45,894 nucleotides of DNA, from positions 1 to 45,894 of the IMG/VR virus record IMGVR_UViG_3300025669_001766; one strand, written 5' to 3'. Below are positions 4,213-23,845 of this stretch, one piece after another. Source of the stretch: a virus. The notes under the pieces were generated by a model. It saw only the letters and a program-made list of their open reading frames with translations, made no database searches and was not told where the DNA came from. How positions within the stretch are numbered: the first letter of the stretch is position 1; each line of letters starts with the position of its first letter. A program made the position numbers and the translations under genes.

Positions 4213-4570
4213 CAAAACCTACCTTTTTTATCTCTTTTCCTATCCTTAAAGCACTATGTAATTTATTTAGAGCTAATTTCTTCATACGATAATCTTTATC
4301 ATTAGCATATCTTTCTCGCATTTTAGCTTTAATCTTTTCACTATTCTTTAAATAATATTCTAAATGATGTTTCAAAATCTTCTTTTTATTTTCTTCGTAA
4401 TGTTTAACCCTATAATCTCTCATAGCTTTCTTACCTTGTTCAGAAGATCTATACTCTTTTTTATGCTGTTTAACATTATCTTTATTCTCCTCATAATACT
4501 TTTTACGATAAGCCTTACTTTGTTCTTTATGTTCTTTACGATATTTCTTATCATATTCTTTTTTGTCCAT
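4205..4570 (-). CDS. Lys/Tyr-rich repeat protein (HNH arm without nuclease domain)
   Basis: This 121-residue protein consists of basic helical repeats such as YRKEHKEQSKAYRKKYYEEN and KHYEENKKKILKHHLEYY. These match the arms of the HNH proteins at 45600, 1118 and 2265. No Cys pair and no HH motif follow; it ends KEIKKVGFDE. It may be an HNH gene that lost its catalytic end, or a stand-alone DNA-binding protein. It overlaps the next leftward gene by 8 nt. Confidence 0.6.
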   Translation of the reverse strand: MDKKEYDKKYRKEHKEQSKAYRKKYYEENKDNVKQHKKEYRSSEQGKKAMRDYRVKHYEENKKKILKHHLEYYLKNSEKIKAKMRERYANDKDYRMKKLALNKLHSALRIGKEIKKVGFDE

Positions 4571-4594
4571 AGTATTATTAGTGGTAGAGTGTAT

Positions 4595-8598: not shown

Positions 8599-8731
8599 GA
8601 GTGATTTAAGATATGAAAATGCTGAGGGAACTCATACCTTTCATATGTGTAAATGCAATCAAAGAGGATGTAGAGGGAATAAATGTCAAATATGCTTAGA
8701 GGAAGAACTAAATGGACGAAACAAAAAATAA
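8573..8731 (+). CDS. Small Cys-rich protein
   Basis: This 52-residue frame contains CKCNQRGCRGNKCQICLEEE, five Cys within 16 residues with a final CxxC. It probably binds zinc. It overlaps the chaperonin start by 20 nt. The function is unknown. Confidence 0.5.
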   Translation: MERTIEQIKSDLRYENAEGTHTFHMCKCNQRGCRGNKCQICLEEELNGRNKK

Positions 8732-10127
8732 CCACATACAATTAGCTATAAATTTTTGCGACCTAATTAGGAGTACATTAGGCCCAAGAGGTATGAATAA
8801 AGCAGTTGTGCAAGGAACTAACGCAATCTTTACTAATGATGGTTCTACTATTGTTAATTCTATTAATGCAAAAGACCCAATTATCCAGTTGTTTAAAGAT
8901 TTAGCAAAGTCTCAAGAAGAAGCTATTGGTGATGGAACAACTACTTCTGTTATATTAGCAGGACAATTACTTAATAATGCCTTACAATTAATGAATAAAG
9001 GGATACACCCAACCACCATAATAAACGGATATAGTTTAGCTAAAGTTGAGTCTATGAGATATTTAGACGAACATTGTGAAAAAGGTGATAAAGAGAAAAT
9101 AATCAAGACTGCTTTTGGAAGTAAAGTGAGTAAAGACATAATTACTCATTTGACTAAAGTTATACTTGGTATAAAAAATTATGAGGAATTAAAAACATAT
9201 AAGGTAATTAATGCAGACCCATTAGAAAGTAAAATATTTAAAGGACATGTTTTTGAGGGTTTTACTATAAACGATAGAACTCCTAAAAAAATTGAGGGAA
9301 AAATTGCATTACTTGATTATAGGACTAACGTAGATGCTACTGATTTTAAAGTAAGTCAAGTAGATGAATTGAAAAAAATTAATGAATATGATAGAACATA
9401 CAAAAAAGATATCATAGACAAATTAGCCGCATGCAATGTAAATTTACTTTTTTATACTGATACAAACCCAGAATTTGAAGCCTACTTAACCGAAAAAGGA
9501 ATTACTGGAATAGTAGTCTACAAGAGAGAAGAAATTGATGGAATTACTCAAGCTTTAGATTTAAAGGCTACTTCTGACCCAAATAACATATTCGTAAAAG
9601 AGGGAGTAGTAGAATATGAAAAACCGGAAACAATTTATGTAAAAGGACAAACAGAAACATTGATACTTAAAGGTTCTACTCAACAAGTGTTAGACGAGAT
9701 TGAAAGAGCAGTTCATGATGTTATTTCACTCTTTAAACATGATACACAAGTAGTAATTGGAGCTGGTGCAATTGAAATTGAATTAGCTAAACAAATTAAT
9801 CACTTTGCTAAGACTGTGGGAGGAAAAGAGCAATTAGCCATAGAAAAATATGCCGAAGCGCTTGAAAGTATCCCATTAATCTTGGCAGAGAATTGTGGAC
9901 ATGATGCTATTCAAATTTTAACTATTTTGAAAACAATACATGAAGAAAACAAAGATATAGGTGTTGATATGGTTAGTGGTGTTTCTGATGCAAGAGAAAG
10001 AGGTATTCTTGACCCAGTCTTAGTTAAAATCCACGCAATAAATTCTGCCACAAATGTAGCCAATCTTATTCTTAAAACAGATAAATTACTACTTGGTGAA
10101 AATGAAAGTTCTGATAACGGGGATTAG
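8712..10127 (+). CDS. Group II chaperonin (thermosome-like)
   Basis: The protein has 471 residues against about 540 for cellular thermosome subunits. Seen in order: TLGPRGM, TNDGSTI, GDGTTTSVILAG (nucleotide binding), VVIGAGAIEIELAK, AENCGHDA, and the C-terminal DPVLVKIHAINSATNVANLI. The N-terminal strand is short and the apical/intermediate region is reduced. Group II chaperonins are the archaeal/eukaryotic type, which supports an archaeal host. Phage chaperonins help fold capsid or other viral proteins; such a role here is inference. The Gly-Gly-Gly seen in many thermosomes near the last ATP site is GAG here. It overlaps the next gene by 26 nt. Confidence 0.93.
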   Translation: MDETKNNHIQLAINFCDLIRSTLGPRGMNKAVVQGTNAIFTNDGSTIVNSINAKDPIIQLFKDLAKSQEEAIGDGTTTSVILAGQLLNNALQLMNKGIHPTTIINGYSLAKVESMRYLDEHCEKGDKEKIIKTAFGSKVSKDIITHLTKVILGIKNYEELKTYKVINADPLESKIFKGHVFEGFTINDRTPKKIEGKIALLDYRTNVDATDFKVSQVDELKKINEYDRTYKKDIIDKLAACNVNLLFYTDTNPEFEAYLTEKGITGIVVYKREEIDGITQALDLKATSDPNNIFVKEGVVEYEKPETIYVKGQTETLILKGSTQQVLDEIERAVHDVISLFKHDTQVVIGAGAIEIELAKQINHFAKTVGGKEQLAIEKYAEALESIPLILAENCGHDAIQILTILKTIHEENKDIGVDMVSGVSDARERGILDPVLVKIHAINSATNVANLILKTDKLLLGENESSDNGD

Positions 10128-11046
10128 TGGCTTTGCTGGGTCCCACTTAGCTGAGTATGCTTTATCTAAAGGACATGAGGTTCATGGAACAACCCGATGG
10201 AGAAGCAAGTTAGAAAATCTGGAAGAAATTAAAGATGCTATTAAATTACATGAATGTGATATAAATGATGCTTTCGCTTTGAGAGATATAATCAAAAAGG
10301 TTAAACCAGATTATATATTTCATTTAGCTGCCCAATCCTATGTTCATTCATCATGGACAGAGCCATCTACTACTTTACGAACAAATATCATAGGTGAGTT
10401 AAATCTCTTTGAAGCAGTAAGGAGTATCCCTGGATATAATCCAAGAATACAAATTGCTGGTTCATCTGAAGAGTATGGGCATACTGATGTAGAACTGGTA
10501 GAAGACTCACCTCTACGCCCACTGTCACCCTATGGCGTGAGCAAGGTTGCCCAAGATTTACTGGCTTTTCAATATTTCAAAAGCTATGGTATGGATATTG
10601 TAATAACAAGAGGATTTAATCATACAGGCCCAAGACGTGGAGAAGTTTTCGTTTGTTCTACTTTTGCTAAACAAATAGCAGAAATAGAGAAAGATAAAAC
10701 TAAATTACCTATTATCTCTGTTGGAAATTTGGATGCAGAAAGAGATTTCACAGATGTAAGAGATATGGTAAAAGGTTACTGGTTAGCATTAGAAAAAGGG
10801 AAAGCTGGAGAAGCCTATAATATATGCTCTAATAAAACAATCCCTATAAAAAATATTCTCAGAAAATTGCTAACTATGAGCAAAAGGAACATAACAATAA
10901 AACAAGACCCAGAAAGAATGCGTCCAAGTGACTTGAAAGTTTTATTAGGAAATAATACTAAATTCTGTGAAAAGACTGGTTGGAAACCTACTATTCCTAT
11001 TAAACAAACATTAGAAGATTTATTAAATTATTGGAGAAATAAATGA
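10102..11046 (+). CDS. NAD(P)-dependent nucleotide-sugar dehydratase/epimerase, GDP-mannose 4,6-dehydratase-like
   Basis: With the ATG at 10102 the protein has 314 residues and begins with the Rossmann motif GISGFAGSHL. GSSEEYG carries the catalytic Ser and acidic residues of dehydratases, SPYGVSK is the YxxxK pair, and RGFNHTGPRR is typical of GDP-mannose 4,6-dehydratase. That enzyme makes GDP-4-keto-6-deoxymannose, the precursor of several deoxy and branched sugars. It opens the glycan cassette. RmlB-type or epimerase activity cannot be excluded. Confidence 0.85.
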   Translation: MKVLITGISGFAGSHLAEYALSKGHEVHGTTRWRSKLENLEEIKDAIKLHECDINDAFALRDIIKKVKPDYIFHLAAQSYVHSSWTEPSTTLRTNIIGELNLFEAVRSIPGYNPRIQIAGSSEEYGHTDVELVEDSPLRPLSPYGVSKVAQDLLAFQYFKSYGMDIVITRGFNHTGPRRGEVFVCSTFAKQIAEIEKDKTKLPIISVGNLDAERDFTDVRDMVKGYWLALEKGKAGEAYNICSNKTIPIKNILRKLLTMSKRNITIKQDPERMRPSDLKVLLGNNTKFCEKTGWKPTIPIKQTLEDLLNYWRNK

Positions 11047-11561
11047 AGTTTTCAGATGAAGTTGCAATTATCTTGAAAAAGCATACTAAGGTAGTATTTG
11101 GAATTACTGGTGGAGCAGTTATTAATATTCTTGATTCAATTCATAAATATGGACCAACGTTAATTCCCATGCACCACGAACAGGCATGTGCTATGGCGGC
11201 TGACGCTTATGCAAGATTAACAGGATTTGGATGTTGTATTGGAACAAGCGGCCCAGGAGCAACTAATTTAGTTACTGGAACTTGTTGTTCATGGTTTGAT
11301 TCTATTCCTGTTTTGACTATTGCTGGGCAAGTGCCATCCTCTCAATTAAAGAGAAAAAGCCATTTACCTTATGTTTCAGAAGTTAGACAAAATGGTTTTC
11401 AAGAAACTGATACAATTACATTATTTTCATCTATTGTAAAAAACTCAAGATATTTACAAAATTTAGATGATTTAGAAGAATCAATAAATATATGTATGGA
11501 GGACAGAAAAGGCCCAACCTTTTTAGAATTTTGCGATGATACCCAAAGAAAAATTTCCTGA
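11043..11561 (+). CDS. Acetolactate synthase-like ThDP enzyme, N-terminal (Pyr) part
   Basis: The 172 residues correspond to the first domain of acetolactate synthase/benzoylformate decarboxylase enzymes. VVFGITGGAVINILD is followed by PMHHEQACAMAADAYAR with the catalytic Glu (HEQ), GTSGPGATNLVTG, IPVLTIAGQVP and FQETDT. The frame stops just after GPTFLEFCDD, where a full-length enzyme would run on as a ..IPKE.. linker. The following frame starts at exactly that point, so the enzyme is naturally split or interrupted by one base. Confidence 0.85.
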   Translation: MKFSDEVAIILKKHTKVVFGITGGAVINILDSIHKYGPTLIPMHHEQACAMAADAYARLTGFGCCIGTSGPGATNLVTGTCCSWFDSIPVLTIAGQVPSSQLKRKSHLPYVSEVRQNGFQETDTITLFSSIVKNSRYLQNLDDLEESINICMEDRKGPTFLEFCDDTQRKIS

Positions 11562-12612
11562 TTTATTAGTTGAAGCTAAAAAGCCAATACTTATAGTTGG
11601 AAATGGATGTAGAAATAGAGAATTAATTGAGAAATTTAATATGCCTACTTTTCTTACTTGGGGCGCGATGGATGTTCTTCCAGATAATCACCCATTAAAT
11701 TTAAGAGATTTTGGGATTACTTCTAATCGCGCAGCAAACTTTATCCTAAAAGAAGCTGATTTAATTATTGCATTAGGAACAAGATTAGATACTCACGAAG
11801 TAATGGGAGATTGGAGAACAGGCAAATTAGTTTCTATTGATATTGATGAAAGTGAAATACACCCAGATGCAGATATGAAAATTTGTCTTGATGCAAATTC
11901 ATTAGAAGATTCTTTTGCGACATATTCATGGCCAGATTGGCTTAAAAAGTGTAAAGAAGTTTTAACATGGCATAAACAAGATACTATCCCTTACAGATTT
12001 ATTGATGAATTATCAAAGGAAGCAAAAGAGAATGCAGTAATAATTACTGATGCTGGACAAACTCTTACTTGGACTATGCAATCTTGGAAAGTAAAAGAGG
12101 GCCAAAGGCTATTTTCTGCATTTAATCACTCACCGATGGGTTATGCAGTTCCTGCAAGTATTGGGGCTGCTTTCGCAAGACCAAATGAACAAATAATTGC
12201 TATTACTGGGGATGGAGGGTTTCAAATGAATATACAAGAATTACAAACCATTAGAGGTTATTCTTTACCAATTAAGATTTTTGTTTTAGATAATAATGGT
12301 TATGGAATGATAAAACAAACTATTGCTGATTGGCCTAAATTCTTAGAAAAAGGAGTTGCATGCGAACCTTATATGGCTAAGTTACAAAATGTAGCAAAAT
12401 GTTACGGATTAAAATATGTTAATATAGAAAATACAAGTGATTTCTGGAAGATTCCGATTGCATTAGAAGAAACAGAACCTACATTAATTAGAGTAAGTAT
12501 TCCAGAATTTTCTAAGATTAAACCTAAATTAAAGTTTGGAGATGAGATGACAGACCTAACACCAAAACTAACTCAAGATGAAAAAACTAAAATTAAAGAA
12601 GCTTTACAATAA
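11536..12612 (+). CDS. Acetolactate synthase-like ThDP enzyme, central and C-terminal (PP) part
   Basis: The 358 residues begin MIPKEKFPDLLVEAKKPILI, the usual start of the central domain. The ThDP/Mg site is ITGDGGFQMNIQEL...LDNNGYGMI (GDG...NN). In deoxysugar clusters such enzymes (for example YerE of yersiniose synthesis) add a two-carbon unit from pyruvate to a keto-sugar. That role here is inferred from the neighbouring dehydratase. It overlaps the N-terminal part by 26 nt in a shifted frame. Confidence 0.85.
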   Translation: MIPKEKFPDLLVEAKKPILIVGNGCRNRELIEKFNMPTFLTWGAMDVLPDNHPLNLRDFGITSNRAANFILKEADLIIALGTRLDTHEVMGDWRTGKLVSIDIDESEIHPDADMKICLDANSLEDSFATYSWPDWLKKCKEVLTWHKQDTIPYRFIDELSKEAKENAVIITDAGQTLTWTMQSWKVKEGQRLFSAFNHSPMGYAVPASIGAAFARPNEQIIAITGDGGFQMNIQELQTIRGYSLPIKIFVLDNNGYGMIKQTIADWPKFLEKGVACEPYMAKLQNVAKCYGLKYVNIENTSDFWKIPIALEETEPTLIRVSIPEFSKIKPKLKFGDEMTDLTPKLTQDEKTKIKEALQ

Positions 12613-12623
12613 AGATTATTATA

Positions 12624-13574
12624 ATGGTAAAATTAAGTAAAAGGTCTAAACGTCTGACAGGTCAAATGATGTTTCAAATAAAAGCAAAAGCTACTGGAAA
12701 GGATTTATTACATTTTGAAATAGGTGACTCTTGTTTTAATTCTCCTAAACAAGTTAAGAAAGCTTGTGCTAAAGCATTAATTTATAACAAGACACATTAT
12801 ACTGACCCTCTTGGATTACCAGAATTAAGAAAGAAGATTGCAGAAAAACATAAGGTTAAAGTAGAAAACGTTGCAGTATGTCCTGCTAACTTTGGAATAT
12901 TCGCAGCTATGAGTATCTTATGTGATAAAGAAGTTGATTATCCAGAACCTGGATTTCCTACATACAAGGCGGTAGCAAGCTACTTAGGATTAAAGAAAAG
13001 CAAAAAAGCTAAAGTAAAGATTGCTAATTGGCCTAATAATCCTACTGGTGAAAATACAGGAACTATTGATGCTGATATTTTGATAAGAGATAATGCTTAT
13101 GACGAAATTGTTTATGATAGTGGATGGCGTCAATATTCTTATGAAGATGTGATAGATATTTATTCATTTTCTAAAACTCATGCAATGAGTGGATATAGAT
13201 TAGGATATATGATTGGGAGTAAGGAATTTATTGAGAAAGTTGGATTGCTTATTGAAACTACTTATTCTTGTTTGCCAGAGTTTATTCAGTATGCAGGGAT
13301 AGAAGCTTTGAAGATTTCTGGATATAAAATGAAAGAGTTAAGAAAAAGAAAAGAGATGATGTATGATATTTTACAATGGTATTATGTAATCAAGAAACCA
13401 AAAGGTGGGATTTATCTTTGGTGTCAATGTGATGAGGGAGATAAAGAGTTTGAGAGATTATTAAAAAAAGGAATAGTATGTTGTCCCGGAAGTGTATTTG
13501 GAAAGAAGAATTTTATTCGTTTCTGTTTCGCAAAGCCAATAAAAGATATTAAAAGATTAGGAGAATTACTATGA
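12624..13574 (+). CDS. PLP-dependent aminotransferase, class I/II
   Basis: The protein has 316 residues, shorter than the usual 380-400. FEIGDSCFNSP, YTDPLGLPELRKKIA, NWPNNPTGE, DNAYDEIVYD and YSFSKTHAMSGYRLGYM (Lys of SFSK binds PLP) are classical fold-type I aspartate aminotransferase motifs. The small domain is trimmed. In this context it may aminate a keto-sugar or make an amino acid substituent. The next gene overlaps it by 4 nt. Confidence 0.87.
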   Translation: MVKLSKRSKRLTGQMMFQIKAKATGKDLLHFEIGDSCFNSPKQVKKACAKALIYNKTHYTDPLGLPELRKKIAEKHKVKVENVAVCPANFGIFAAMSILCDKEVDYPEPGFPTYKAVASYLGLKKSKKAKVKIANWPNNPTGENTGTIDADILIRDNAYDEIVYDSGWRQYSYEDVIDIYSFSKTHAMSGYRLGYMIGSKEFIEKVGLLIETTYSCLPEFIQYAGIEALKISGYKMKELRKRKEMMYDILQWYYVIKKPKGGIYLWCQCDEGDKEFERLLKKGIVCCPGSVFGKKNFIRFCFAKPIKDIKRLGELL

Positions 13575-14224
13575 GAGTTACAATCGTTCATACAAGCAAA
13601 GATGATTTAACAAAATGTTTAGATAGTCTTAAACGATATTCTCCAGAACTACCAATAGATTTTTTGAAAGTTGAAAACCCTTCTGAAACAACAGACCCAT
13701 TAATTGAATACAATAAATATTTTGAAACTATGAAAGATGATATTATTATTTGGCATCCAGATATGATTGCTAAACCTCATTGGTATGAAAGAGTTAAAGT
13801 ATATTGGAATTATTTTGATGTTATTGGATTAAAATTACTTTATCCAAATGGATTGATTCAGCATTTTGGTGGAGCAATTAGGCCAGACGGCGGAGGCTGT
13901 CATCCCGAACAATATCTTTTAAATATTGGATATACATATCCTCAAGATGTAGCTTATGTCACAGGGCCAGGAACAATTATAAAGAAGAAAGTCTTAAAAA
14001 AAATAGGTGGTTACGATTTACAATTCATAAAAGGATTTTATGGTGATGCTGATTGGTGTATGAGAGCAAGAGAAGCTGGATTTAAGGTTGGAGTAATTCC
14101 AGTAGAAGCAATACATGAAGAACAAGAGGGCGGAAGAAGTAAGGAAAGAACCACAGAATTACTAAAAAAACATCACCCAATATTCGTAGCAAAACATTTG
14201 GAGGAATTTAAAAAATACAAATGA
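13571..14224 (+). CDS. Family 2-like glycosyltransferase
   Basis: The protein has 217 residues. VTIVHTSKDDLTKCLDSL is the GT-A entry, IIIWHPDM stands at the position of the DxD metal site, and GPGTIIKKKVLKKIGGYD with GFYGDADWCMRAREAGFKVG is the acceptor-side pattern of GT2 enzymes (ED/D.DW..R). It transfers a sugar from a nucleotide donor. It has no membrane segment. It lies in the ATGA-coupled glycan operon. Confidence 0.82.
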   Translation: MRVTIVHTSKDDLTKCLDSLKRYSPELPIDFLKVENPSETTDPLIEYNKYFETMKDDIIIWHPDMIAKPHWYERVKVYWNYFDVIGLKLLYPNGLIQHFGGAIRPDGGGCHPEQYLLNIGYTYPQDVAYVTGPGTIIKKKVLKKIGGYDLQFIKGFYGDADWCMRAREAGFKVGVIPVEAIHEEQEGGRSKERTTELLKKHHPIFVAKHLEEFKKYK

Positions 14225-15054
14225 TAAGCAAACAATTTAATTATGCAGAAATGTTTTTAACATTAGGATGTAATTTGGGTTGTTCTTATTGTATAAATGA
14301 TGTTGATGGTGTAAAAAGAGATAGAGAAGAATTATCTGCAAAAAAATGGGCAAAGGCGATAAATAGATTTGATTGGAAAATTCCATTAACATTAGGTGGA
14401 GGAGAACCAACAATGCATAAAGAATTCTATAAATTACTTAACTTAATTAAGCCAGAAGTTAATTTAGAATTATTAACCAATCTTACCTTTGATCCAACAG
14501 AATTTATAATGAAAACTAAACCAAAAAGATTTACTAAAGGACATGGAGCATATAAATCAATTAGGGCTTCTTATCATCCAGAAAAACATAATCCTATTTC
14601 CTTAGTTAATAATGCTCAGATACTCCAAGACAATGGATTTAAGGTAGGGATATTTGGAATTAATCATCCAGCAAGTATGAAACCTAATATAGAGATGGCA
14701 GAATGGGCAAGAGATAAGGGAGTTTATTTTTTTATAAAAGATTTCTTAGGAGAAATTAAAGGACATAAATTTGGTTACTTAAAATACCCAGATGCAGTTG
14801 GGAAAAAAGAGGGAGAAAATGTTTTGTGTAGAACAAAAAATATAACAGTTGGACCAGATGGAGAGGTTTATAAATGTCATAGAGATTTATACCATGCAGA
14901 GAATTCTATTGGAAATATCCAAGATACTAATTTTAGTTTTAAATATAGATTTAGACAGTGTGGTGATTATGGGAAGTGTAATCCTTGTGACGTTAAAGCA
15001 AGAACTAATAGATTTTTAGAGATGGGCGATTCTAATGTGGAGATAACAAAATGA
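14221..15054 (+). CDS. Radical SAM enzyme, short, with Cys-rich C-terminus
   Basis: The protein has 277 residues. The CNLGCSYC motif near residue 18 is the CxxxCxxC ligand set of the radical SAM 4Fe-4S cluster, and TLGGGEPTMHKEF is the SAM-binding GGEP segment. The C-terminus has VLCRTKNITVGPDGEVYKCH and CGDYGKCNPC, resembling an auxiliary-cluster (SPASM-like) region. The substrate is unknown; the position suggests sugar or lipid-linked glycan chemistry. Confidence 0.85.
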   Translation: MISKQFNYAEMFLTLGCNLGCSYCINDVDGVKRDREELSAKKWAKAINRFDWKIPLTLGGGEPTMHKEFYKLLNLIKPEVNLELLTNLTFDPTEFIMKTKPKRFTKGHGAYKSIRASYHPEKHNPISLVNNAQILQDNGFKVGIFGINHPASMKPNIEMAEWARDKGVYFFIKDFLGEIKGHKFGYLKYPDAVGKKEGENVLCRTKNITVGPDGEVYKCHRDLYHAENSIGNIQDTNFSFKYRFRQCGDYGKCNPCDVKARTNRFLEMGDSNVEITK

Positions 15055-15725
15055 AATTATTAACAATATGCTCAACAAGAAAAAGACCAAAGTTAGCGAA
15101 GAAAATGTGTGACTCTTTTAATGAAACAAAAAGTGAGGGAACTGAAATAGTTTTCTATGTTTGGGAAGATGACCCTTTTGTAGAAGAATATAAAAGATTA
15201 TTAAAAGACGAAGATGTAATTTATGGAAAGGAAAGATATATGGGTGATATTTTAAATCACATCACAACAGAATATTATCCAGATGTTCAATATTATCAAA
15301 ATATAAACGATGATCACTTATATCTTGTGAAAGGTTGGGATAAATTAATGTTAGCTCCATTAGAAAAGAATAATGGTTGGGGTATATCATATTGTAAAGG
15401 TGTCAATGCAAAGCATAATCCTAATGCAGAAATAATGTCTGGAAAGATTGTAAAAGCGCTTGGTTATTATCTATGGCCAGAATTTAGACAATTTGGTTGT
15501 GAGCCTTATATGACTGCAATCGGAGAACATTTCAAATTCTTTTATTATATTAAAGGAGATATAATTGCTCATAATTGTATCAACATTGGAGCATTTGAAA
15601 AAGATGAAAACTGGCAATTTATTTATGGACAAGATGTTCCTCATGGGACGAGAGCATTTGAAAATTGGAAGAATACTAAAAGTGCAGAAGATTATAAAAA
15701 AATTGAGGATGCGATGAATGGATAG
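15051..15725 (+). CDS. Glycosyltransferase-like protein
   Basis: The protein has 224 residues. It begins LLTICSTRKRPKLAKKMCDS, the GT-A style start of family 2-like enzymes, and has YYQNINDDHLYLVKGWDKLM, where NDDH may be the DxD-type metal site. WDKLMLAPLEKNNGWGISYC follows. The family cannot be fixed by eye. It is coupled to its neighbours by short overlaps. Confidence 0.65.
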   Translation: MKLLTICSTRKRPKLAKKMCDSFNETKSEGTEIVFYVWEDDPFVEEYKRLLKDEDVIYGKERYMGDILNHITTEYYPDVQYYQNINDDHLYLVKGWDKLMLAPLEKNNGWGISYCKGVNAKHNPNAEIMSGKIVKALGYYLWPEFRQFGCEPYMTAIGEHFKFFYYIKGDIIAHNCINIGAFEKDENWQFIYGQDVPHGTRAFENWKNTKSAEDYKKIEDAMNG

Positions 15726-16131
15726 TAAATTAAAAAGTGCAACTAAGAGCATAATATGGAGAATAGTTGGAGTCCTAATCTTAGCAGCAGTTACTTGGTT
15801 TTATACAAAGTCTTGGATAACTGTTGGATTAGTAACAATAATTCATCATGTGACATTTCTATTTGTTTATTATTTCCATGAAAGGATTTGGTTAAAATTT
15901 AATTCTCCTTGTGGGCGTCAGAATTGTTTGCTATGTAATAGATTTCATGGAATGAAATTAAAACTATTGAAAATGTTTACTTATGAAACTATTTGTGGTA
16001 ATATACTATTGGGTATGATTACTTATTTTATCACAGGAAGCTGGATAGCAATGACTCAAATAACATTAACTTATATTGGAATTAAACATATCACTTATGT
16101 GATTAATGAATTTATATGGAAGACAAAATAA
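15718..16131 (+). CDS. DUF2061-type membrane protein
   Basis: The protein has 137 residues. KSIIWRIVGVLILAAVTWFY and the later ETICGNILLGMITYFITGSW are two copies of the DUF2061 pattern (S..K...WR..G...T....T). Each is followed by a helix ending in HVTFLFVYYFHERIW or HITYVINEFIW. About four membrane segments are predicted. A central CGRQNCLLC may bind metal. The function is unknown; it often occurs near sugar nucleotide genes. Confidence 0.75.
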   Translation: MDSKLKSATKSIIWRIVGVLILAAVTWFYTKSWITVGLVTIIHHVTFLFVYYFHERIWLKFNSPCGRQNCLLCNRFHGMKLKLLKMFTYETICGNILLGMITYFITGSWIAMTQITLTYIGIKHITYVINEFIWKTK

Positions 16132-16535
16132 TTTACGCTTATGTTGTAGCAGACCTAATTCATGTTGGGCATATTTTACACTTAGAAAACTGTAAGCAGT
16201 TTGGAGATAAATTGGTGGTAGGAGTTTTAACTGATGAGGCTTGTATGGAAAAAAAAGATAAACCAATTATTCCATTTGCTGAAAGAATGAAGATGGTTAG
16301 TTCGCTTAAATGTGTAGATGTTGTAATCCCTCAAAATGATTATTCTCCAACAATGAATATGAGAATTATCAAACCGGATTTCTTAATGGAAAGTTATTCT
16401 CACTCTGACGAAGATTTAGAAAAGACTTATGCTATTGCTAATGAATTAGATATTGAAGTAATTAAAATGCCTTATTATGATGCTCAAAGCACAACTAAAA
16501 TAAAGGAGAAAATATGCAAACAAAAAACAGAATAA
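16116..16535 (+). CDS. Cytidylyltransferase (TagD/RfaE C-terminal type)
   Basis: The protein has 139 residues. DLIHVGHILHLE is the HxGH nucleotidyltransferase motif, VVGVLTDE and RMKMVSSLKCVDVVIP are conserved in the family, and QSTTKIKEKI is the C-terminal STT.I signature. Such enzymes join CTP with a phosphorylated alcohol such as glycerol 3-phosphate. With the LicD-like gene at 17079 it may supply a CDP-activated group for transfer to a glycan. Confidence 0.85.
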   Translation: MEDKIIYAYVVADLIHVGHILHLENCKQFGDKLVVGVLTDEACMEKKDKPIIPFAERMKMVSSLKCVDVVIPQNDYSPTMNMRIIKPDFLMESYSHSDEDLEKTYAIANELDIEVIKMPYYDAQSTTKIKEKICKQKTE

Positions 16536-17101
16536 TTCAAGAAAAATATTATGCAGAAGAAAAAAGCAAAGATTGTCTTTATCTTACTCATAGAGAGAAA
16601 TGGAATTGGATGTATCAAGACCACGAAGCATTACTTGATATAATTGATAAATTTAATGTAAAGACAATTTTAGAATTAGGAACCTGGCAAGGATTTACCG
16701 CTGGACTAATGTTAAAGAAAGGAGTAAAAATTAAAGCAATAGATATTTGTGCTGGAATGGGAGTGGTTTATTCTCATGGTTCTCATAAACAAACTGATAA
16801 AGATAATTATGGAAAGTATGCAAGAGGGCCTAATTATGAATTAGAATTTCATGATACAAGAACCTATGAACCAAATGGACAAGAGTTTGATATGGTTTTT
16901 ATTGATGCAAATCATGATTATGAATTTGTAAAAGCTGATACAGAATTAGCAAGAAAGTTTAATCCTAAAGTAATAGCTTGGCATGATTATGGAAGTGAGC
17001 CAGGCGTTGGAAAATATATTGATGAATTAAAAAAGGAGGGTAAAGAGATTATTGGATTTGACCAATCTCTTATTGTATATGAAAACACAGATAATAATTG
17101 A
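16514..17101 (+). CDS. Class I SAM-dependent methyltransferase
   Basis: The protein has 195 residues. Motif I is ILELGTWQGFTAGLML, the acidic ribose-binding position is KAIDICAG, and FDMVFIDANHDYEFVKADTE resembles the Methyltransf_24 family, which includes sugar O-methyltransferases. AAAGGAG precedes the ATG. It overlaps the LicD-like gene by 23 nt. The target is probably a sugar. Confidence 0.75.
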   Translation: MQTKNRIIQEKYYAEEKSKDCLYLTHREKWNWMYQDHEALLDIIDKFNVKTILELGTWQGFTAGLMLKKGVKIKAIDICAGMGVVYSHGSHKQTDKDNYGKYARGPNYELEFHDTRTYEPNGQEFDMVFIDANHDYEFVKADTELARKFNPKVIAWHDYGSEPGVGKYIDELKKEGKEIIGFDQSLIVYENTDNN

Positions 17102-17645
17102 AGAATTTGATGATTTATGTAAGGAATTAAACATAACTTATTGTTTCACACTTGGAACTGCATTAGGAATTTATAGAGATGGAGAAACTATCCCTGGAGA
17201 TAATGATATTGATTTGATGGTTTTTTGTGGTAAGATGAAATTACAAGAATTACAAAAAAGATTATGTGCGATGGATTATTCTTTTACTGCTATGAATATT
17301 GGTTGGGGTAATGAGATGAATATGCATTTTTGGAAAGAGGGTATTTTACTTGATGCTCATTTTCAATGTTTGGATGCAGAAGATAAGTTCTTTGAAAAAT
17401 TTAATGAAGTAGAATATCATGGAAGAAAATATAATTTACCTTATCCGACTGGAGAATATCTTGAAATGGAATATAATGAAATTAATGTAAATAAAAATAA
17501 TTGGAAAAAGAAAGATTCTGGAAAGAGCAGGCCCTTAGTTGGGCAAAATGGGAAAAAAGCACTTGCAATAAATCCCGATAACTATTTTAAAAATAAATAC
17601 CAATGGGGGCAAGCAGGAGATATAGAATGGGACAAAAACCACTAA
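17079..17645 (+). CDS. LicD-family phosphotransferase
   Basis: From the ATG at 17079 the protein has 188 residues. TLGTALGIYRDGETIPGDND followed by IDLMVF is the LicD/nucleotidyltransferase-fold signature (G..LG..R....IP.D.DID). LicD proteins transfer phosphocholine or a related group from a CDP-donor to a sugar. The CDP-donor maker may be the gene at 16116. The C-terminal part lacks any membrane segment. It overlaps the radical SAM gene by 19 nt. Confidence 0.8.
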   Translation: MKTQIIIEEFDDLCKELNITYCFTLGTALGIYRDGETIPGDNDIDLMVFCGKMKLQELQKRLCAMDYSFTAMNIGWGNEMNMHFWKEGILLDAHFQCLDAEDKFFEKFNEVEYHGRKYNLPYPTGEYLEMEYNEINVNKNNWKKKDSGKSRPLVGQNGKKALAINPDNYFKNKYQWGQAGDIEWDKNH

Positions 17646-18736
17646 AACATAAAATAGATTTAGATCACAGAATGAACGATACTAAGTTACTTTGGCATAT
17701 GGATAGAGTAAAAGCTTGGTTAGATAGGGGAGAGAGAATTGCACCTATTCATATTGATATGGGAATTGCTAAGTTTTGTAATATTCGATGTGTTTATTGT
17801 TATGGTGAAAACCAAGAACAATGTATGAAATTTATCCAAAAAGATGCCTTACTTAATTTAGTTAGTAATGCTAAAAAGATCGGGATTAAATCTATTGGGT
17901 TTATTGGAGATGGGGAACCTACTTGTAATCCTAATATGCACGAAGCATTGGAGGCAGCTACTTGTGATATGGCAATTTCTACTAATGGTGTTTTACTTGA
18001 TACTGATGAGAAAAGAGAGAACGTTTTAAAAAATTGTAAATGGATGAGATTTAATATTTCTGCAGGAACAAGAGAGGGTTATAAAAAAATCCATAGCAGA
18101 GATTATTTTGATAAGGTTGTTGAAAACATTAAAGCAATGGTTAGATTAAAAAAAGAGAAAGGCTACGAATGTGAAGTAGGATTACAGAGTGTTTATGTTC
18201 CTGGAATGATGGATAATGATATGATTGAGCTTTCTAAATTAGCTGTTGAATCAGAAGTAGATTATCTTTTAATTAAACAATGTTCTTTACCAGACGGAAA
18301 TCTTAAGGTTGGACAAATTGAATTTGATGTTAATGATTATGATAAAGATAGTGTTCAGAAAATTCTAAGAGATTGTGAAGATATGTCTAACGACAAAACT
18401 AAGATAATTCCTAAGTGGGCCTTAATGGAACAAAAAGGGATAAGACCATACGACGGATGTTTAGGAATTCCTTTCTTAGTTCAGATTTCTGGAAATGGAG
18501 ATGTTTATCCTTGTGGGCAAATGTTTCAGAAAGAAAAATATAAAGAATACTTTATGGGTAATTTACATGATATGCCTTTTGGAGAAATAGTAAAGAGTGA
18601 AAGATATTGGGAAGTAGTCGAAAAGATGAAAAAGTTTAATGTTCATAAGGATTGCACTGGTGCTTGTCGTCAAGACAAAGTAAATGAGTTTCTATTTAAT
18701 TATGATAATCGTCCTCGAGGTATTAATTTCATATGA
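17627..18736 (+). CDS. Radical SAM enzyme with SPASM-like C-terminus
   Basis: With the ATG at 17627 the protein has 369 residues. CNIRCVYCYG (about residue 50) is the CxxxCxxC cluster motif and SIGFIGDGEPTCNP is the GGEP-equivalent. The C-terminus has CLGIPFLVQISGNGDVYPCG and, further on, CTGACR, which fit auxiliary Fe-S ligands. SPASM proteins modify peptides or sugars. The substrate here is unknown. It is the second radical SAM enzyme in the cassette. Confidence 0.87.
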   Translation: MGQKPLKHKIDLDHRMNDTKLLWHMDRVKAWLDRGERIAPIHIDMGIAKFCNIRCVYCYGENQEQCMKFIQKDALLNLVSNAKKIGIKSIGFIGDGEPTCNPNMHEALEAATCDMAISTNGVLLDTDEKRENVLKNCKWMRFNISAGTREGYKKIHSRDYFDKVVENIKAMVRLKKEKGYECEVGLQSVYVPGMMDNDMIELSKLAVESEVDYLLIKQCSLPDGNLKVGQIEFDVNDYDKDSVQKILRDCEDMSNDKTKIIPKWALMEQKGIRPYDGCLGIPFLVQISGNGDVYPCGQMFQKEKYKEYFMGNLHDMPFGEIVKSERYWEVVEKMKKFNVHKDCTGACRQDKVNEFLFNYDNRPRGINFI

Positions 18737-18963
18737 AATTTAAAAAATTTACTACATTAATAGATGAAGCTAATAAAAGAGAAATTAAAAATATAATTTT
18801 AACTTACAGAGAATTTGATACCCTATGTAGAAATACACGATTCTCGCATTGTCTTCTTGAAAAAAAGAAGCCCATTGAATATTGGATTTTTGGAAAGAGA
18901 ATAATCTTTGATGAGGACATAGAATATCAAGGATTACTTACTAAATCGAGGATTAAAATATGA
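18733..18963 (+). CDS. Small hypothetical protein
   Basis: This 76-residue basic protein starts MKFKKFTTLIDEANKREIKN. It has alternating strand-like segments (YWIFGKRIIFDEDIEYQG). It is flanked by 4-nt overlaps with the radical SAM gene and the RusA gene. No family was recognised. Confidence 0.65.
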   Translation: MKFKKFTTLIDEANKREIKNIILTYREFDTLCRNTRFSHCLLEKKKPIEYWIFGKRIIFDEDIEYQGLLTKSRIKI

Positions 18964-19340
18964 TAATCACATTACCTTTCAAAACACCGACGGTAAATCA
19001 TCTTTATTTTAATTGGAAAGGAAGAACTATAAAAACTAAGGAAGCTAAAGAATTAAAAAAAGAGATTTTAGAATTAGTTGGTGGTAGCTGGAATGAAATA
19101 CAATCACGACAAATAAAAGATAAAACATTAAAAGTTGTAGTAGAAGTTTATGAAGATTGGCTTTGTAAAGATGGAAGTGTTAAAAAGAAAGATGTAGCAA
19201 ATAGAGAAAAGTTTATAATAGATAGTGTGTTTGATAGTTTAGGAATAGATGATAAGTATATTTACGAATTAATAATAAGAAAGGTTCAAAGCGAAAAAGA
19301 ACAAGCGATAATAAAAATTGAGGTATACAATGAAATTTAA
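18960..19340 (+). CDS. RusA-type Holliday junction resolvase
   Basis: The protein has 126 residues. It begins LPFKTPTVNHLYFNW, the P..VN..Y core of RusA, and contains KDVANREKFIIDSVF then GIDDKYI, matching the D..N..K...D.l...DD.y.. catalytic acidic pattern. RusA resolves branched DNA before packaging. It sits oddly inside the glycan cassette. The RuvB-like ATPase at 4595 could be a functional partner. Confidence 0.82.
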   Translation: MIITLPFKTPTVNHLYFNWKGRTIKTKEAKELKKEILELVGGSWNEIQSRQIKDKTLKVVVEVYEDWLCKDGSVKKKDVANREKFIIDSVFDSLGIDDKYIYELIIRKVQSEKEQAIIKIEVYNEI

Positions 19341-19707
19341 AAAAGGAAATATCCCACATAATAAAGGAAAGAAATGTTCTTGGGTAACTGAAAAAAATCT
19401 AAAAGATAATCCTATGAAAAATAGCAAAAGTGTAGAGAAAATGCGAAAAAAGAAATTAGGGAAAGGTAAGGGTTGGATTTCATCTGGTTATAAATGTTTA
19501 AGTATAAATGGGATAAGATATTTTGAACACCATTCTGTATGGTTGAAAGCAAATCAATTACACAGAATTCCAATGGGTTGTGTGATACATCATCTTGATG
19601 GAAATAAATTAAATAATAGTCTTGGAAATCTTCAATTAATGCCAAATAAAGAGCATATGGAATTTCATGCACTTATTCAAGGAAATATGATAGGAGCTAA
19701 TAAATGA
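19330..19707 (+). CDS. HNH homing endonuclease
   Basis: With the ATG at 19330 the protein has 125 residues. The N-terminal KKGNIPHNKGKK and MKNSKSVEKMRKKKLGKGKG resemble NUMOD3-like DNA-binding elements. HHSVWLKAN, then VIHHLDGNKLNNSLGNLQLM and KEHMEFH, is the HNH signature of the phage type without zinc knuckles. It overlaps the RusA gene by 11 nt and the next gene by 4 nt. Confidence 0.87.
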   Translation: MKFKKGNIPHNKGKKCSWVTEKNLKDNPMKNSKSVEKMRKKKLGKGKGWISSGYKCLSINGIRYFEHHSVWLKANQLHRIPMGCVIHHLDGNKLNNSLGNLQLMPNKEHMEFHALIQGNMIGANK

Positions 19708-20780
19708 AAATAATTTTTAAGGGTGACTGCTTTTCTCCCACAGGAATCGCAACTGCAAATAGAGAAATGGTTAAGGCGTTAGCCAAAAGAGATGATGTTG
19801 AAATTCAAGTAGCTGATGTATGGAATTCTAAGTATGATTGTAATAAAGGATTAGAATATTTGAACAAAGCTATTGATGGAAATTCTAAAGATATTAAAAC
19901 TATTTTTGCTGCTTACCCTCAAACTTGGCAAGGTGGCTATGGAGAATTAATTGGACACCCAATTCATGAGGGGACTAAGATATTTCCACAATGGATTCCA
20001 TTAATTAATCAATGCGAAAAGATATTTGTTTGTTCTGAAAGTAATAAAAATTTGTATAAATGGAATGACATTACAATTCCAATAACTGTTATTCATTATG
20101 GAACTAATCCAGAAATTTATAAACCGGCACAGCTAAGGAACAGCTCTGGCACAGCTAAATTTACATTCCTTTCAGTTAATTCTTGGAGTGGTGAAGTTGG
20201 AGATAGAAAAGGAACTGATTTACTTTTAAGAGCATTTGATGAAGAATTTAAAGAGGGCGAAGCAAAATTAATTTTAAAGATTGGAACTTTCTGGCAAGAT
20301 AAAAGAGATTACAAACAATTAGCAAAAAACATTTTAGGACATGAAAATAAAGATATAATAATTGATACAGAATATAAAAGTGAAGAAGATTTAGTTAAGT
20401 ATTATCAAGAAGCAGATTGTTTTGTAGCACCCACAAAAGGAGAGGGATTTGGATTAACAATCTTAAACGCTATGGCTTGCGGATTACCAGTAGTTGTGAC
20501 TAAAGATGTTAATTCTGGACATATGGATTTCTGTAAAGATAGAGATTCAGTTGTTTGGATTGATGCGACAGAAGTTGAACAAGGAGATCCTCGATTTTAT
20601 TGCCCTGGAAATATGTTAGCTAAACCAGACTTTGAAGATATTAAAAAACAAATGAGATTTGCTTTTGAAAAGAAAGATGAATTAAAAGCAAGAGGCTTAG
20701 AGGTTAGTAAAGAAATTAGAGAGCATTGGACTTGGTCTGTAACGGCCGAGAAGATTGTTAAATTTTTACAAAATGACTAA
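19704..20780 (+). CDS. Family 4-like glycosyltransferase
   Basis: The protein has 358 residues with a GT-B fold. The N-terminus is KGDCFSPTGIATANREMVKA. The C-terminal donor site is FVAPTKGEGFGLTILNAMAC. The usual E-x7-E signature is E-x7-N here, a possible change in donor handling. GDRKGTDLLLRAFDEEF is the family's start of the second domain. It probably acts at the cytoplasmic membrane on a glycan chain. Confidence 0.87.
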   Translation: MKIIFKGDCFSPTGIATANREMVKALAKRDDVEIQVADVWNSKYDCNKGLEYLNKAIDGNSKDIKTIFAAYPQTWQGGYGELIGHPIHEGTKIFPQWIPLINQCEKIFVCSESNKNLYKWNDITIPITVIHYGTNPEIYKPAQLRNSSGTAKFTFLSVNSWSGEVGDRKGTDLLLRAFDEEFKEGEAKLILKIGTFWQDKRDYKQLAKNILGHENKDIIIDTEYKSEEDLVKYYQEADCFVAPTKGEGFGLTILNAMACGLPVVVTKDVNSGHMDFCKDRDSVVWIDATEVEQGDPRFYCPGNMLAKPDFEDIKKQMRFAFEKKDELKARGLEVSKEIREHWTWSVTAEKIVKFLQND

Positions 20781-21126
20781 ATCAAAAGGAAAAATCAAAA
20801 ACAGAAAGAAGATTAAACTTAGTGAAACACACAAGGAGAGCATTAAAAAATCTATGAAAGGCAAACATAAAGGTAAAGATAACCCTGCTTGGAAAGGTGG
20901 AAAGAGTAGAAAATACTCACAGACATTAAAAAAGACATTACCTCAAGTTTGTGTGGTTTGTGGTTCTAATGAAAATTTAGAAATACATCATAAAGACAGA
21001 AATCCAGAAAATAATGAATTATCTAATTTGGAAATTCTTTGTAGGTATCATCACAAGATAGAACATATTGCACATCTAATCCCATTTCAATATAAAAAAG
21101 GAGAGAATAACCACACAAGAAAATGA
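20773..21126 (+). CDS. HNH endonuclease with NUMOD3-like arm
   Basis: With the ATG at 20773 the protein has 117 residues. LSETHKESIKKSMKGKHKGK then DNPAWKGGKSRKYS is a NUMOD3-like DNA-binding motif. CVVCGSNENLEIHHKDRN with CRYHHK is a zinc-type HNH. It overlaps the glycosyltransferase by 8 nt. Confidence 0.87.
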   Translation: MTKSKGKIKNRKKIKLSETHKESIKKSMKGKHKGKDNPAWKGGKSRKYSQTLKKTLPQVCVVCGSNENLEIHHKDRNPENNELSNLEILCRYHHKIEHIAHLIPFQYKKGENNHTRK

Positions 21127-21407
21127 AATCAAATGAATTAAGAAAACATTTTGTATCATCAAGCAAATATCACTCCTATAAATGTAAGATATGTAAAAAA
21201 ACATTTAAATCTATAAATGATATTAAAGAACACTTCATATTAGAACATATGGAAGCTACAATTAAACTTAGAAAACCTCAGAAACTTTATCCCTATTATT
21301 TCTTTAGTGATGAGGAGAAAGTTATTGATGGAAAAGAATATATTAAACATGCTAAAATTTGGTATAATAAATCTAAAAAAGAAAAAATAGTGGAATATCT
21401 AAAATGA
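21123..21407 (+). CDS. C2H2-like zinc-finger protein
   Basis: The protein has 94 residues. YKCKICKKTFKSINDIKEHF then ILEH forms one C2H2 finger (CxxC...HxxxxH). The rest is basic and aromatic, ending KIWYNKSKKEKIVEYLK. It probably binds nucleic acid. It has ATGA overlaps on both sides. Confidence 0.75.
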   Translation: MKSNELRKHFVSSSKYHSYKCKICKKTFKSINDIKEHFILEHMEATIKLRKPQKLYPYYFFSDEEKVIDGKEYIKHAKIWYNKSKKEKIVEYLK

Positions 21408-22102
21408 ATCCAGAAGAATTAAAGGAGATGAATGAAATTGATTGGTGGCATCAAATGGAATTAGACGGAGTCATGACTCCTGGCAGAGATTATACTCAAC
21501 CAAAGTTACAAACAATACAATTACCAAATAATTTGAAGGGAAAAAGTGTGATAGATGTAGGAGCCTGGGATGGCTTCTTCTCTTTTGAATGTGAAAGACG
21601 AGGTGCTAAAGATGTTTTAGCGATTGATACAATTACTTGGAAAGAAGGCCCACTTTGGGCAGCAGATAAAGGTAGAGAGATAATGCATACTGGAAAAAAA
21701 GGTTTTAATTTTGCTCAAACAATCCTTAATTCAGCAGTTCAAAGTATGGAAATAGAAGTTATGGACTTAGCAAAAGCACAACCTAAACAATTTGATTTAG
21801 TTCTTTGCTTAGGAATTATGTATCACATGAAAGACCCTTTTGGGATGTGTAAAGTTATGTATGATATTACTGCAGAGGGGGGGATGTGTATTATTGAAAC
21901 TCATATGGATTGTATGAATATTAGAGATAAGGCTGTAATGGCTTTTTATTCTGATAAACAATGTAACAACGATCCTGGAACTTGGTGTGGGCCTAACCCT
22001 AAGTGTGTTGCAGAAATGCTAAAGGCTGCAGGATTTAAAGAAGTTAAAATGGTTTTTGCCAATGAGCAAATTCACAGGGGGGTATTTCACGCATTCAAAT
22101 GA
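21404..22102 (+). CDS. SAM-dependent methyltransferase, CmoB/DUF1698-like
   Basis: The protein has 232 residues. IDWWHQMELDGVMTPGRDYT then LKGKSVIDVGAWDGFFSFEC (motif I VGAWDGFF) and FDLVLCLGIMYHMKDP are typical of the CmoB-like group, which includes proteins in glycan clusters. CNNDPGTWCGPNPKCVAEML carries extra Cys. It is probably a sugar or carboxyl methyltransferase; tRNA wobble modification is less likely given the context. Confidence 0.78.
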   Translation: MNPEELKEMNEIDWWHQMELDGVMTPGRDYTQPKLQTIQLPNNLKGKSVIDVGAWDGFFSFECERRGAKDVLAIDTITWKEGPLWAADKGREIMHTGKKGFNFAQTILNSAVQSMEIEVMDLAKAQPKQFDLVLCLGIMYHMKDPFGMCKVMYDITAEGGMCIIETHMDCMNIRDKAVMAFYSDKQCNNDPGTWCGPNPKCVAEMLKAAGFKEVKMVFANEQIHRGVFHAFK

Positions 22103-22218
22103 TGACTTGTTTTCTCTGTTCTAAAGGAATTTTTCATGGCGAAGAAATCCCAATTAGAGTGGATGGAGAAGAAAAGGTAATCTGTAAGGAGTGTGATGAT
22201 GAAGAAGCATGGGAATAG
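22099..22218 (+). CDS. Mini zinc-ribbon protein
   Basis: This 39-residue frame, MMTCFLCSKGIFHGEEIPIR and so on, ends VICKECDDEEAWE. Two CxxC pairs about 28 residues apart form a complete zinc ribbon. It starts in an overlap with the methyltransferase stop and ends 10 nt into the next gene. The function is unknown. Confidence 0.6.
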   Translation: MMTCFLCSKGIFHGEEIPIRVDGEEKVICKECDDEEAWE

Positions 22219-23450
22219 AAGATAAGAAAATAACTGTAATGACATTTGGAGATAATCCTAAGATGTCTACTGGCTATGGTTGTGTCTGGGATAATTTACT
22301 TCGTAGATGGGCTAAGATGAAACCTAAATGGGATTTCATGCATGTTGGTTGGCAGAACACTGATAGACCACATAAACGTGCTGAGGGTTACTATATGCTA
22401 CCAAGAGGTAGAGATAATCATGGGTTTGATATGGTTCTACCAAACTTGATGAAATATAAACCTGAGATATTAATTACCCTTTGTGATGTTGGAAAACAAA
22501 GTGGATTTATTGCAGGAATTAAAGAAGCAAAACAAAGAGGATGGAAAGGAAAATGGTTAGCTTATACTCCTATTGATTGTCACCAGTGGGCGGTTCATTG
22601 GACTGAGATATTTGCTACACCAGATATTAATATCGCCATGGCTAAGTTTGGAGAAATAATGATGAAGAATAATGATGTTCCTAATGTAAAATATATTCCT
22701 CATGGTGTGGATACAAAGGCTTATTTTCCAAGTGCAGATAGGGGAGAAAGAAGAAAGGCATTTGGAATAAACGAAAAGTTTGTTGTAGGGTTTGTTGGAA
22801 GAAATCAAACAAGAAAGATGATCCCCCATATGATGAGAGGATTTGCTAATTTTGCTAAAGGTAAAGATGATGTTACTTTGCTAATGCATACTGATGCTCA
22901 TCCCCCAGGTGGAGAGGGTAGAGGTTCTGTGATAGACGCTCTTGTTTGGAAATTTGAAAAAGAAAGTGGTGGAGATTTATTTGCTTCTAAAAAGATAATG
23001 ATGACTCAAGGAGATATGGATATTCTTACAAGACAAGCAATACAACCAGACAATATGAATGATGTTTATAATTTATTTGATTTGTTTCTTTACTCTACTG
23101 GTGGAGAGGGATTTGGCTTACCAGCGATTGAATCTCAAGCAAGTGGATTACCTATTCTTATGAGTAATAATACTACTGGCCCAGAATTAGTTGAAGAAAG
23201 TGGAGAGTTAATTGATACATTGAAAGATAATCATGGAAGACCTATTGGTTATATTGGAACTAATGGTGTTGAAAATCTTATACCTGATGATGTTCATATA
23301 ACTCAATTACTTGAAAAGTATTATACAGATTGGAAAGGAGATAGAGAAACTCTGAAAGAGATGTCTGAGAAAAGTAGAAAGTTTGCACTAACTTATGATT
23401 GGGATATTGTAGCTAAGCTTTGGCTTGACTTGTTCGAGGAGAATATCTAA
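22209..23450 (+). CDS. Family 4-like glycosyltransferase
   Basis: The protein has 413 residues with a GT-B fold. MTFGDNPKMSTGYGCVWDNL is the entry, YIPHGVDTKAYFP and VGFVGRNQTRKM begin the donor domain, and GGEGFGLPAIESQASGLPIL carries a canonical E-x7-E. It is the last gene of the glycan cassette before the terminase block. It overlaps the HNH gene by one base (TAATG). Confidence 0.88.
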   Translation: MGIEDKKITVMTFGDNPKMSTGYGCVWDNLLRRWAKMKPKWDFMHVGWQNTDRPHKRAEGYYMLPRGRDNHGFDMVLPNLMKYKPEILITLCDVGKQSGFIAGIKEAKQRGWKGKWLAYTPIDCHQWAVHWTEIFATPDINIAMAKFGEIMMKNNDVPNVKYIPHGVDTKAYFPSADRGERRKAFGINEKFVVGFVGRNQTRKMIPHMMRGFANFAKGKDDVTLLMHTDAHPPGGEGRGSVIDALVWKFEKESGGDLFASKKIMMTQGDMDILTRQAIQPDNMNDVYNLFDLFLYSTGGEGFGLPAIESQASGLPILMSNNTTGPELVEESGELIDTLKDNHGRPIGYIGTNGVENLIPDDVHITQLLEKYYTDWKGDRETLKEMSEKSRKFALTYDWDIVAKLWLDLFEENI

Positions 23451-23845
23451 TGGGAAGAAAATGTCCTTGGATGGCAGAGAGAAATAGAAAATATAGAACC
23501 TTTAAAGAGAAAATAAAGAAAAATTGTAATTTCTGTAATATAGAATTTTTTGTTAGGCCATCTAATAAAGACGCTAAATTCTGTTGTAGAAAATGCAAGG
23601 ATGTTTCTCAAATAGTTAAAAATTCACATAGTCATAATCAGAAAGTGTATAAGGAATTAAGTAAATTATTTCCTCAAGAATGTATGCTTTGTGGAACAGA
23701 TGACAAGTTACTTGTTCATCATAAGGATGGAAATAAATTTAATAATTCATTATGTAATTTATCTATTCTTTGTAGGGGTTGCCATAACAGGGTTCATCTG
23801 AGGAAATCTGGAAAGTTAGTAATAATTTCCACACCCCATTCATGA
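23450..23845 (+). CDS. HNH endonuclease
   Basis: The protein has 131 residues. An N-terminal zinc finger (CNFCNIEFFVRPSNKDAKFC, then C..C) precedes the HNH domain (CMLCGTDDKLLVHHKDGNKF then LSILCRGCHNRVH). An endonuclease next to terminase is a known phage arrangement (HNH assisting TerL at cos sites), but here it resembles the other homing-type HNH copies. It overlaps terL by ATGA. Confidence 0.87.
   Translation: MGRKCPWMAERNRKYRTFKEKIKKNCNFCNIEFFVRPSNKDAKFCCRKCKDVSQIVKNSHSHNQKVYKELSKLFPQECMLCGTDDKLLVHHKDGNKFNNSLCNLSILCRGCHNRVHLRKSGKLVIISTPHS

Follow-up and report, generated by a model that had tools for sequence, protein, structure and literature searches.

How a 46-kb tailed virus comes to carry 15 carbohydrate-type enzymes in one block, what they build and where the product is placed are the questions raised by IMG/VR record IMGVR_UViG_3300025669_001766, whose 45,894 nucleotides, analysed whole, are called the window here. 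The enzymes are encoded by open reading frames (ORFs) on one strand between a chaperonin gene (8712-10127) and the terminase large subunit gene (23842-25257; PF03237, PF17289), and all locus coordinates given below refer to the + strand. Of the 22 junctions from chaperonin to terminase, all co-oriented, 20 overlap or abut and the other two are gaps of 11 and 106 nt. An earlier sequence-only reading had described about 15 sugar genes joined by short overlaps between these two flanks, and profile searches of each protein, together with fold comparisons, now back every domain that it named as belonging to glycan-type enzymes. Its estimate that the cassette fills nearly 30% of the genome is correct for the span (29%) but not for glycan genes proper, since the enzymes amount to 11.65 kb (25.5%) because hypothetical, RusA, HNH and zinc-finger genes lie among them; for the same reason, one function for the entire stretch was rejected. 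We consider it very probable that the stretch is a virus-encoded glycan-synthesis locus.

The position of this locus is fixed across a clade of related viruses. Relatives recruited with terminase, short-chain dehydrogenase/reductase (SDR), GT4b and chaperonin queries share a frame of chaperonin, SDR, variable interior, GT4a, methyltransferase, GT4b, terminase, portal and capsid genes, in which the methyltransferase is optional, the SDR is found in most loci and the two GT4-type glycosyltransferases (GTs), GT4a and GT4b, are found always where the contig covers them. Because these queries favoured locus-bearing contigs, a second set was recruited by the major capsid protein (MCP) alone, giving 35 contigs with capsid identity of at least 49%, which are not all independent, since some almost match one another or the window in sequence. 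GT4b lies directly upstream of terminase in 34/34 MCP-recruited contigs that include terminase, and GT4a is present in 29/29 that extend far enough to cover it; one contig of this set, L086, is without the region. Neither gene was found in six more distant capsid relatives (31-41%), within the stretch fetched. The two GT4 enzymes beside terminase are the clade core. In the window they occupy 19704-20780 (GT4a; PF00534, E=7e-20) and 22209-23450 (GT4b, directly 5' of terminase across the clade; PF00534, E=4e-8), and a Methyltransf_9 methyltransferase (21404-22102; PF08003, E=8e-11) stands between them, as it often does in relatives.

A cassette of this size could also be an assembly chimera with host DNA, as the sequence-only reading itself had cautioned. 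The accessory content is unusually large for 46 kb, and two near-identical contigs begin at window positions 18761 and 19740, so that 10102-18760 is uncovered by them. However, the order of genes between chaperonin and terminase is identical in the relative G006, which comes from a different metagenome; the same frame is found in dozens of related IMG/VR contigs; GC (guanine plus cytosine) content is even over the whole window; and gene order across both flanks is conserved in divergent relatives. A chimeric join can be dismissed for practical purposes. With ~45.76 kb, the virus genome in the window is complete, its two ends sharing a direct repeat of 137/138 bp (1-137 and 45757-45894) with a one-base homopolymer difference, and IMGVR_UViG_3300005915_000091, from a different metagenome and 99.99% identical, spans the junction from its end to its start. 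The IMG/VR class 'linear' for this complete genome is probably due to the one base by which the end-repeat copies differ. IMG numbers such as 3300005915 and 3300023257 probably denote Antarctic saline-lake metagenomes, and looking for publications under the IMG accession yielded no paper. Terminase, portal, HK97-type capsid, tape measure and tail genes fill 23.8-42 kb.

Within the frame, the interior is exchanged. Type A interiors have a GT2-like GT, radical SAM enzyme 1, a GT-A-fold GT and radical SAM enzyme 2 in common, usually with LicD and a cytidylyltransferase. Four interiors (window, G006, G012 and G015) carry a thiamine diphosphate (ThDP) enzyme like acetohydroxyacid synthase (AHAS) and YerE, together with an aminotransferase; three (G003, G005 and G010) carry a split transketolase, identified by Pfam; and both ThDP types together were seen in no record compared. 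Another interior, with a different radical SAM enzyme, a GT4, a second SDR and a nucleotidyltransferase, occupies this position in G004, G014, G016 and G018, and in G013 and G017 the interior is almost absent. For tree tests, groups were fixed from the gene-content table prior to tree building. The terminase tree joined the window to G003 at 100/100 and rejected the ThDP-type groups (p-AU, approximately unbiased test, 5e-47), and the GT4b tree agreed with it. The radical SAM 2 tree split exactly by ThDP type, again at 100/100, and rejected window plus G003 (p-AU 3e-6); the GT-A tree agreed with it, and the radical SAM 1 tree did not match ThDP type. These conflicting phylogenies make it highly likely that the interior has been swapped as a module between virus backbones. 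Radical SAM 2 also has relatives in 36 IMG/VR contigs, often together with a split transketolase, radical SAM 1 and GT-A (L151, L160, L163, L167, L176 and L179); some of these contigs are 55-115 kb long and, over the part that was read, have neither the terminase nor the capsid of the clade. Through these partners outside the clade, the core module seems common to several virus lineages.

Genes unrelated to glycans are scattered along the locus: a hypothetical gene, a RusA-like resolvase and an HNH endonuclease at 18733-19707 (PF05866, PF13392), and an HNH endonuclease with a zinc-finger gene at 20755-21407 (Pfam scan). The window has four HNH-type endonuclease genes (2265-2753, 19318-19707, 20755-21126 and 23450-23845, the last preceding terminase), three of them in or adjoining the cassette, and these could drive exchange of the interior. 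Several rearrangements were seen in relatives, for which oriented-contig coordinates are given. The G004 cassette holds a DNA methyltransferase frame broken in two (11082-11568) and homologous to window 5494-6036. In G010 (16043-18304) and G011 (17212-19476), the terminase ORF is ~753 aa long and is interrupted by an insert with an HNH match, the pattern that an intein or an element of that kind would give. Next to terminase, three relatives have portal, tail and lectin-like genes in inverted orientation (G004, ~20901-23952; in G005 and G006, the portal genes), and further copies of tail genes lie elsewhere in them; this resembles an invertible tail or fibre segment. Outside the locus, an AAA protein of the window (4595-5497, -) combines RuvB-like P-loop and RuvB C-terminal domains and matches phage clamp-loader families.

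What the interior makes is best approached from its first four genes. The SDR (10102-11046; PF16363, E=5e-83; 2pk3 RMD, E=2e-80) has full-length homology to GDP-6-deoxy-4-keto-mannose enzymes (GDP, guanosine diphosphate), with a YxxxK motif and GSSEEYG as in RMD, and resembles GDP-keto-sugar reductases and dehydratases (RMD/GMD); its start is likelier at ATG 10102, where homologues start, than at the upstream TTG 10093. The ThDP enzyme had been read as a single protein, and its domains stand, but they belong to two overlapping ORFs: a PYR-domain half (11043-11561; PF02776) and a half with the central and PP domains (11536-12612; PF00205 and PF02775). The same split occurs in G006 (72-74% identical), and G012 (550 aa) and G015 (563 aa) have a single ORF. 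The first ORF still ends, in frame, with the conserved CDDxQR sequence, the second begins at an ATG inside the overlap, and both halves are under purifying selection, with a ratio of non-synonymous to synonymous substitution rates (dN/dS) near 0.23. A frameshift or sequencing error was rejected, and the split is a real gene fission, because it recurs in G006, is under purifying selection and leaves the CDDxQR end in frame. The domains are of decarboxylase type, with a GDG...N motif, and the solved structures that match best are those of AHAS and of the YerE-like JanthE. ThDP matches in the phage collection, being 2-4 kb fragments and chromosomal acetolactate synthase loci, look like host DNA and were set aside. 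The class I/II aminotransferase (12624-13574; PF00155, E=2e-24) is found in the interiors whose ThDP enzyme is of AHAS type.

YerE-like enzymes and split-gene transketolases have been linked to branching of deoxy-keto sugars (PMC12247030). Given this link, the GDP-keto-sugar SDR with which many of the loci begin and the interchange of two unrelated ThDP ligases, keto-sugar branching is the chemistry that we propose, although a C-branched sugar among the products is put at slightly less than an even chance. The SDR would handle a GDP-4-keto-6-deoxy sugar, and the split ThDP enzyme would join a unit derived from a 2-keto acid to the keto carbon, yielding a branched sugar; the aminotransferase, which resembles amino-acid enzymes, may feed the 2-keto acid to the ThDP enzyme or might aminate the product. 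In sister viruses, the split transketolase would carry out the equivalent branching step. Alternatively, the ThDP enzyme, aminotransferase and transketolase could be metabolic helpers for host amino-acid or pentose metabolism that merely sit beside glycan genes, in keeping with the closeness of the ThDP enzyme to AHAS and of the aminotransferase to amino-acid enzymes. Yet the ThDP types alternate inside one GT/radical SAM module, partner trees follow ThDP type, no AHAS regulatory subunit was found among Pfam-scanned ORFs, and the transketolase-type module is likewise seen with GT-A and radical SAM genes in virus lineages outside the clade. We therefore regard such a helper role as improbable.

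The remaining interior genes suggest how a branched sugar might be tailored, extended and substituted. Radical SAM/SPASM enzymes 1 (14221-15054; PF04055, E=2e-11; PF13186) and 2 (17603-18736, true start likely after 17603; PF04055, E=6e-18; PF13186, E=3e-8) would tailor the product together with the methyltransferases, one of which is a Methyltransf_24 protein (16514-17101; PF13578, E=8e-8). A cytidylyltransferase-like nucleotidyltransferase (16116-16535; PF01467, E=7e-15), with PCYT2, a Fom1 domain and TagD as relatives, would activate a head group that LicD then transfers as a phospho-substituent. The LicD-family phosphotransferase (17052-17645, annotated start uncertain; PF04991, E=2e-9) has a GDxDxDL motif, and its model (predicted local distance difference test score, pLDDT, 87) has its best solved Foldseek match in FKRP, a LicD relative that uses CDP-ribitol (CDP, cytidine diphosphate). 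The cytidylyltransferase is present in 5/6 LicD-bearing interiors, and G015, without LicD, is also without it. The variable part of the glycan would be assembled by the GT2- and GT-A-type enzymes, and the conserved part by the two core GT4 enzymes. The GT2-like gene (13571-14224) has a weak, below-cut-off Pfam match (PF13641, E=1e-3) and homologues at the same position, and the GT-A-fold protein (15051-15725), without a Pfam match, is assigned from PHROG_14945 (E=1.5e-19) and GT-A glycosyltransferase matches in Foldseek to a moderate model (pLDDT 64.5). A DUF2061 membrane protein (15718-16131; PF09834, E=7e-12) is the only locus protein with clear hydrophobic segments. Across the genes tested, dN/dS values of 0.09-0.29 indicate purifying selection.

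Where the glycan is placed separates two readings, of which we moderately favour a virion rather than a host target. The sequence-only reading had proposed an unusual sugar on a host or virion glycan for receptor masking or exclusion; the glycan-building set is upheld, refined here to a conserved frame with an exchangeable interior, and the host-directed role is now less supported. If a glycan on the host surface (S-layer or N-glycan) were remodelled for masking or superinfection exclusion, the cassette would draw on the lipid carrier, flippase and oligosaccharyltransferase of the host. The enzyme content is indeed like that of capsule and O-antigen clusters, LicD and DUF2061 suit envelope work, and temperate phages alter host serotypes (PMC12619734). 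However, in nine records searched we detected neither STT3/AglB (PF02516; present in the four archaeal controls), nor the GtrA flippase (PF04138; present in 7/14 controls), nor a phage integrase (PF00589; present in all controls). An identity as a serotype-conversion (gtrABC) locus was rejected, GtrA and integrase being absent from these nine records, as was an archaeal N-glycosylation (agl) cluster, STT3 being absent from them too. Because of these absences, because the GTs lack clear membrane segments and because the locus is continuous with the terminase and head module rather than with early genes, virion decoration fits better, and host remodelling is judged unlikely, at about one chance in four.

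A third possible target is DNA, with the GTs and tailoring enzymes hypermodifying the viral genome against restriction or CRISPR. Virus GTs able to glycosylate DNA have been described (Pyle et al. 2024, as cited in PMC12619734), and restriction- and DNA-repair-type genes lie nearby. The thymidylate-synthase family (PF00303), the usual source of hydroxymethyl bases, was nevertheless absent from ten records including this complete genome, in comparison with 9/14 control genomes that have it, and LicD, a cytidylyltransferase and nucleotide-sugar enzymes are unexpected for base modification. This explanation is very improbable.

Most likely, then, as predicted from gene content, the module makes an unusual, possibly C-branched sugar and a CDP-activated head group that are put on virion proteins. 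The predicted target is a virion protein, to which the glycan would be attached late in infection and in the cytoplasm. Swapping of the interior, which resembles capsule and O-antigen locus switching in bacteria, would alter the outer glycan and may thereby shield virions from glycan-specific recognition or change adsorption. Between the GT4 genes, four relatives encode lectin-fold, LamG or jelly-roll-like proteins (oriented-contig coordinates: G003, 9784-10554; G013, 4510-5316; G014, 13287-13994; G015, 15943-16554); such a protein is also found in G004 (20901-21839, -), and the window has none. Their bodies differ and they have a common C-terminal motif, G-E/K-F/Y-x-K/R-S/T-K/R; possible roles are acceptor, companion, virion anchor or sorting tag.

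The virus had been called a tailed archaeal one. It is tailed, and an archaeal host is plausible, not proven, from its group II, thermosome-like chaperonin (PF00118, E=2e-95; TIGR02339), which is the same neighbour in relatives and had no match among INPHARED phage records. At 471 aa, compared with ~545 aa for archaeal thermosome subunits, this fixed left neighbour is short. A capsid-profile scan of contigs from GTDB gave weak bacterial matches only and no provirus, and no spacer pointing to a host was found either.

Several points weigh against the explanation as a whole. Chemistry, acceptor and host are all inferred. The fused ThDP homologue scores as well against AHAS (6lpi, 240 bits) as against JanthE (227 bits), so ketone branching is a prediction; the SDR could be a reductase that relies on a host dehydratase; the host could provide lipid carriers and oligosaccharyltransferase; DUF2061 shows that one membrane step is possible; and chemotype counts are small, with some contigs related. 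The overall explanation, with its fixed frame, exchangeable interior, C-branching chemistry, virion target and glycan swapping, stands at about even odds. More tentatively still, these would be (probably archaeal) tailed viruses with a glycotype locus, in which two conserved GTs by the packaging genes are paired with an exchangeable interior for C-branched, phospho-substituted sugars built with either ThDP ligase, and in which whole coat chemistries are traded, also with virus families of other kinds that have the radical SAM/transketolase core.

A 46-kb virus thus gives a quarter of its genome to a synthesis locus that is fixed in its clade and swappable in its middle. Different versions of the kit at the same spot suggest that complete recipes for a sugar coat pass between viruses, much as capsule types do between bacteria. 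If the product is on the virion, the locus makes it possible to ask by genetics why viruses that infect prokaryotes vary the chemistry of their surfaces, and it is a source of uncharacterised candidate sugar-branching ThDP and radical SAM enzymes.

Descriptions of virus-encoded glycans mostly concern phages with a single GT or a small number of them, or giant viruses and large cyanophages with larger sets. A literature search found no archaeal-virus cassette of this kind within the library searched, and new here are the GT4 pair as clade core, the interior swapped as a module and the two alternative ThDP ligases, never seen together. In virion-glycosylation cassettes, virus GTs lie in or beside the structural module, as GT4a and GT4b do near terminase. 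Mycobacteriophage Che8 and its relatives (Freeman et al. 2023, as cited in PMC12619734 and PMC11256854) have GTs that modify capsid and tail proteins, a target that is only predicted here; these accounts describe a few GTs, without nucleotide-sugar, ThDP, radical SAM or LicD pathways or an exchangeable interior. In the bacterial phages TJE1, phiPsal1 and S-CBS4, homologues of GT4b (24-29% identity) lie by genes for terminase, portal or capsid, and some are accompanied by an epimerase, nucleotidyltransferase or methyltransferase gene, but the sets of these phages are of two to five genes with no annotated ThDP, radical SAM or LicD enzyme, their hosts are bacterial and the phages have no chaperonin match. 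Large cyanophages with polysaccharide or nucleotide-sugar genes (S-SKS1, Bellamy and ACG-2014f) encode GMD-like SDRs (35-43% identity), the likeness being known from these SDR genes, and differ in their genomes of 170-225 kb and bacterial hosts. The yersiniose, caryophyllose and miharamycin pathways (PMC12247030) likewise combine a decarboxylase-type ThDP ligase or split transketolase with keto-sugar SDRs, but in bacterial lipopolysaccharide or antibiotic clusters, whereas here the locus is viral, the ThDP gene is fissioned and the activity is predicted. Unlike bacterial capsule and O-antigen loci, the present one is viral and has no recognised flippase or polymerase gene; like them, it has conserved flanks around a glycan-synthesis interior that recombines as a unit.

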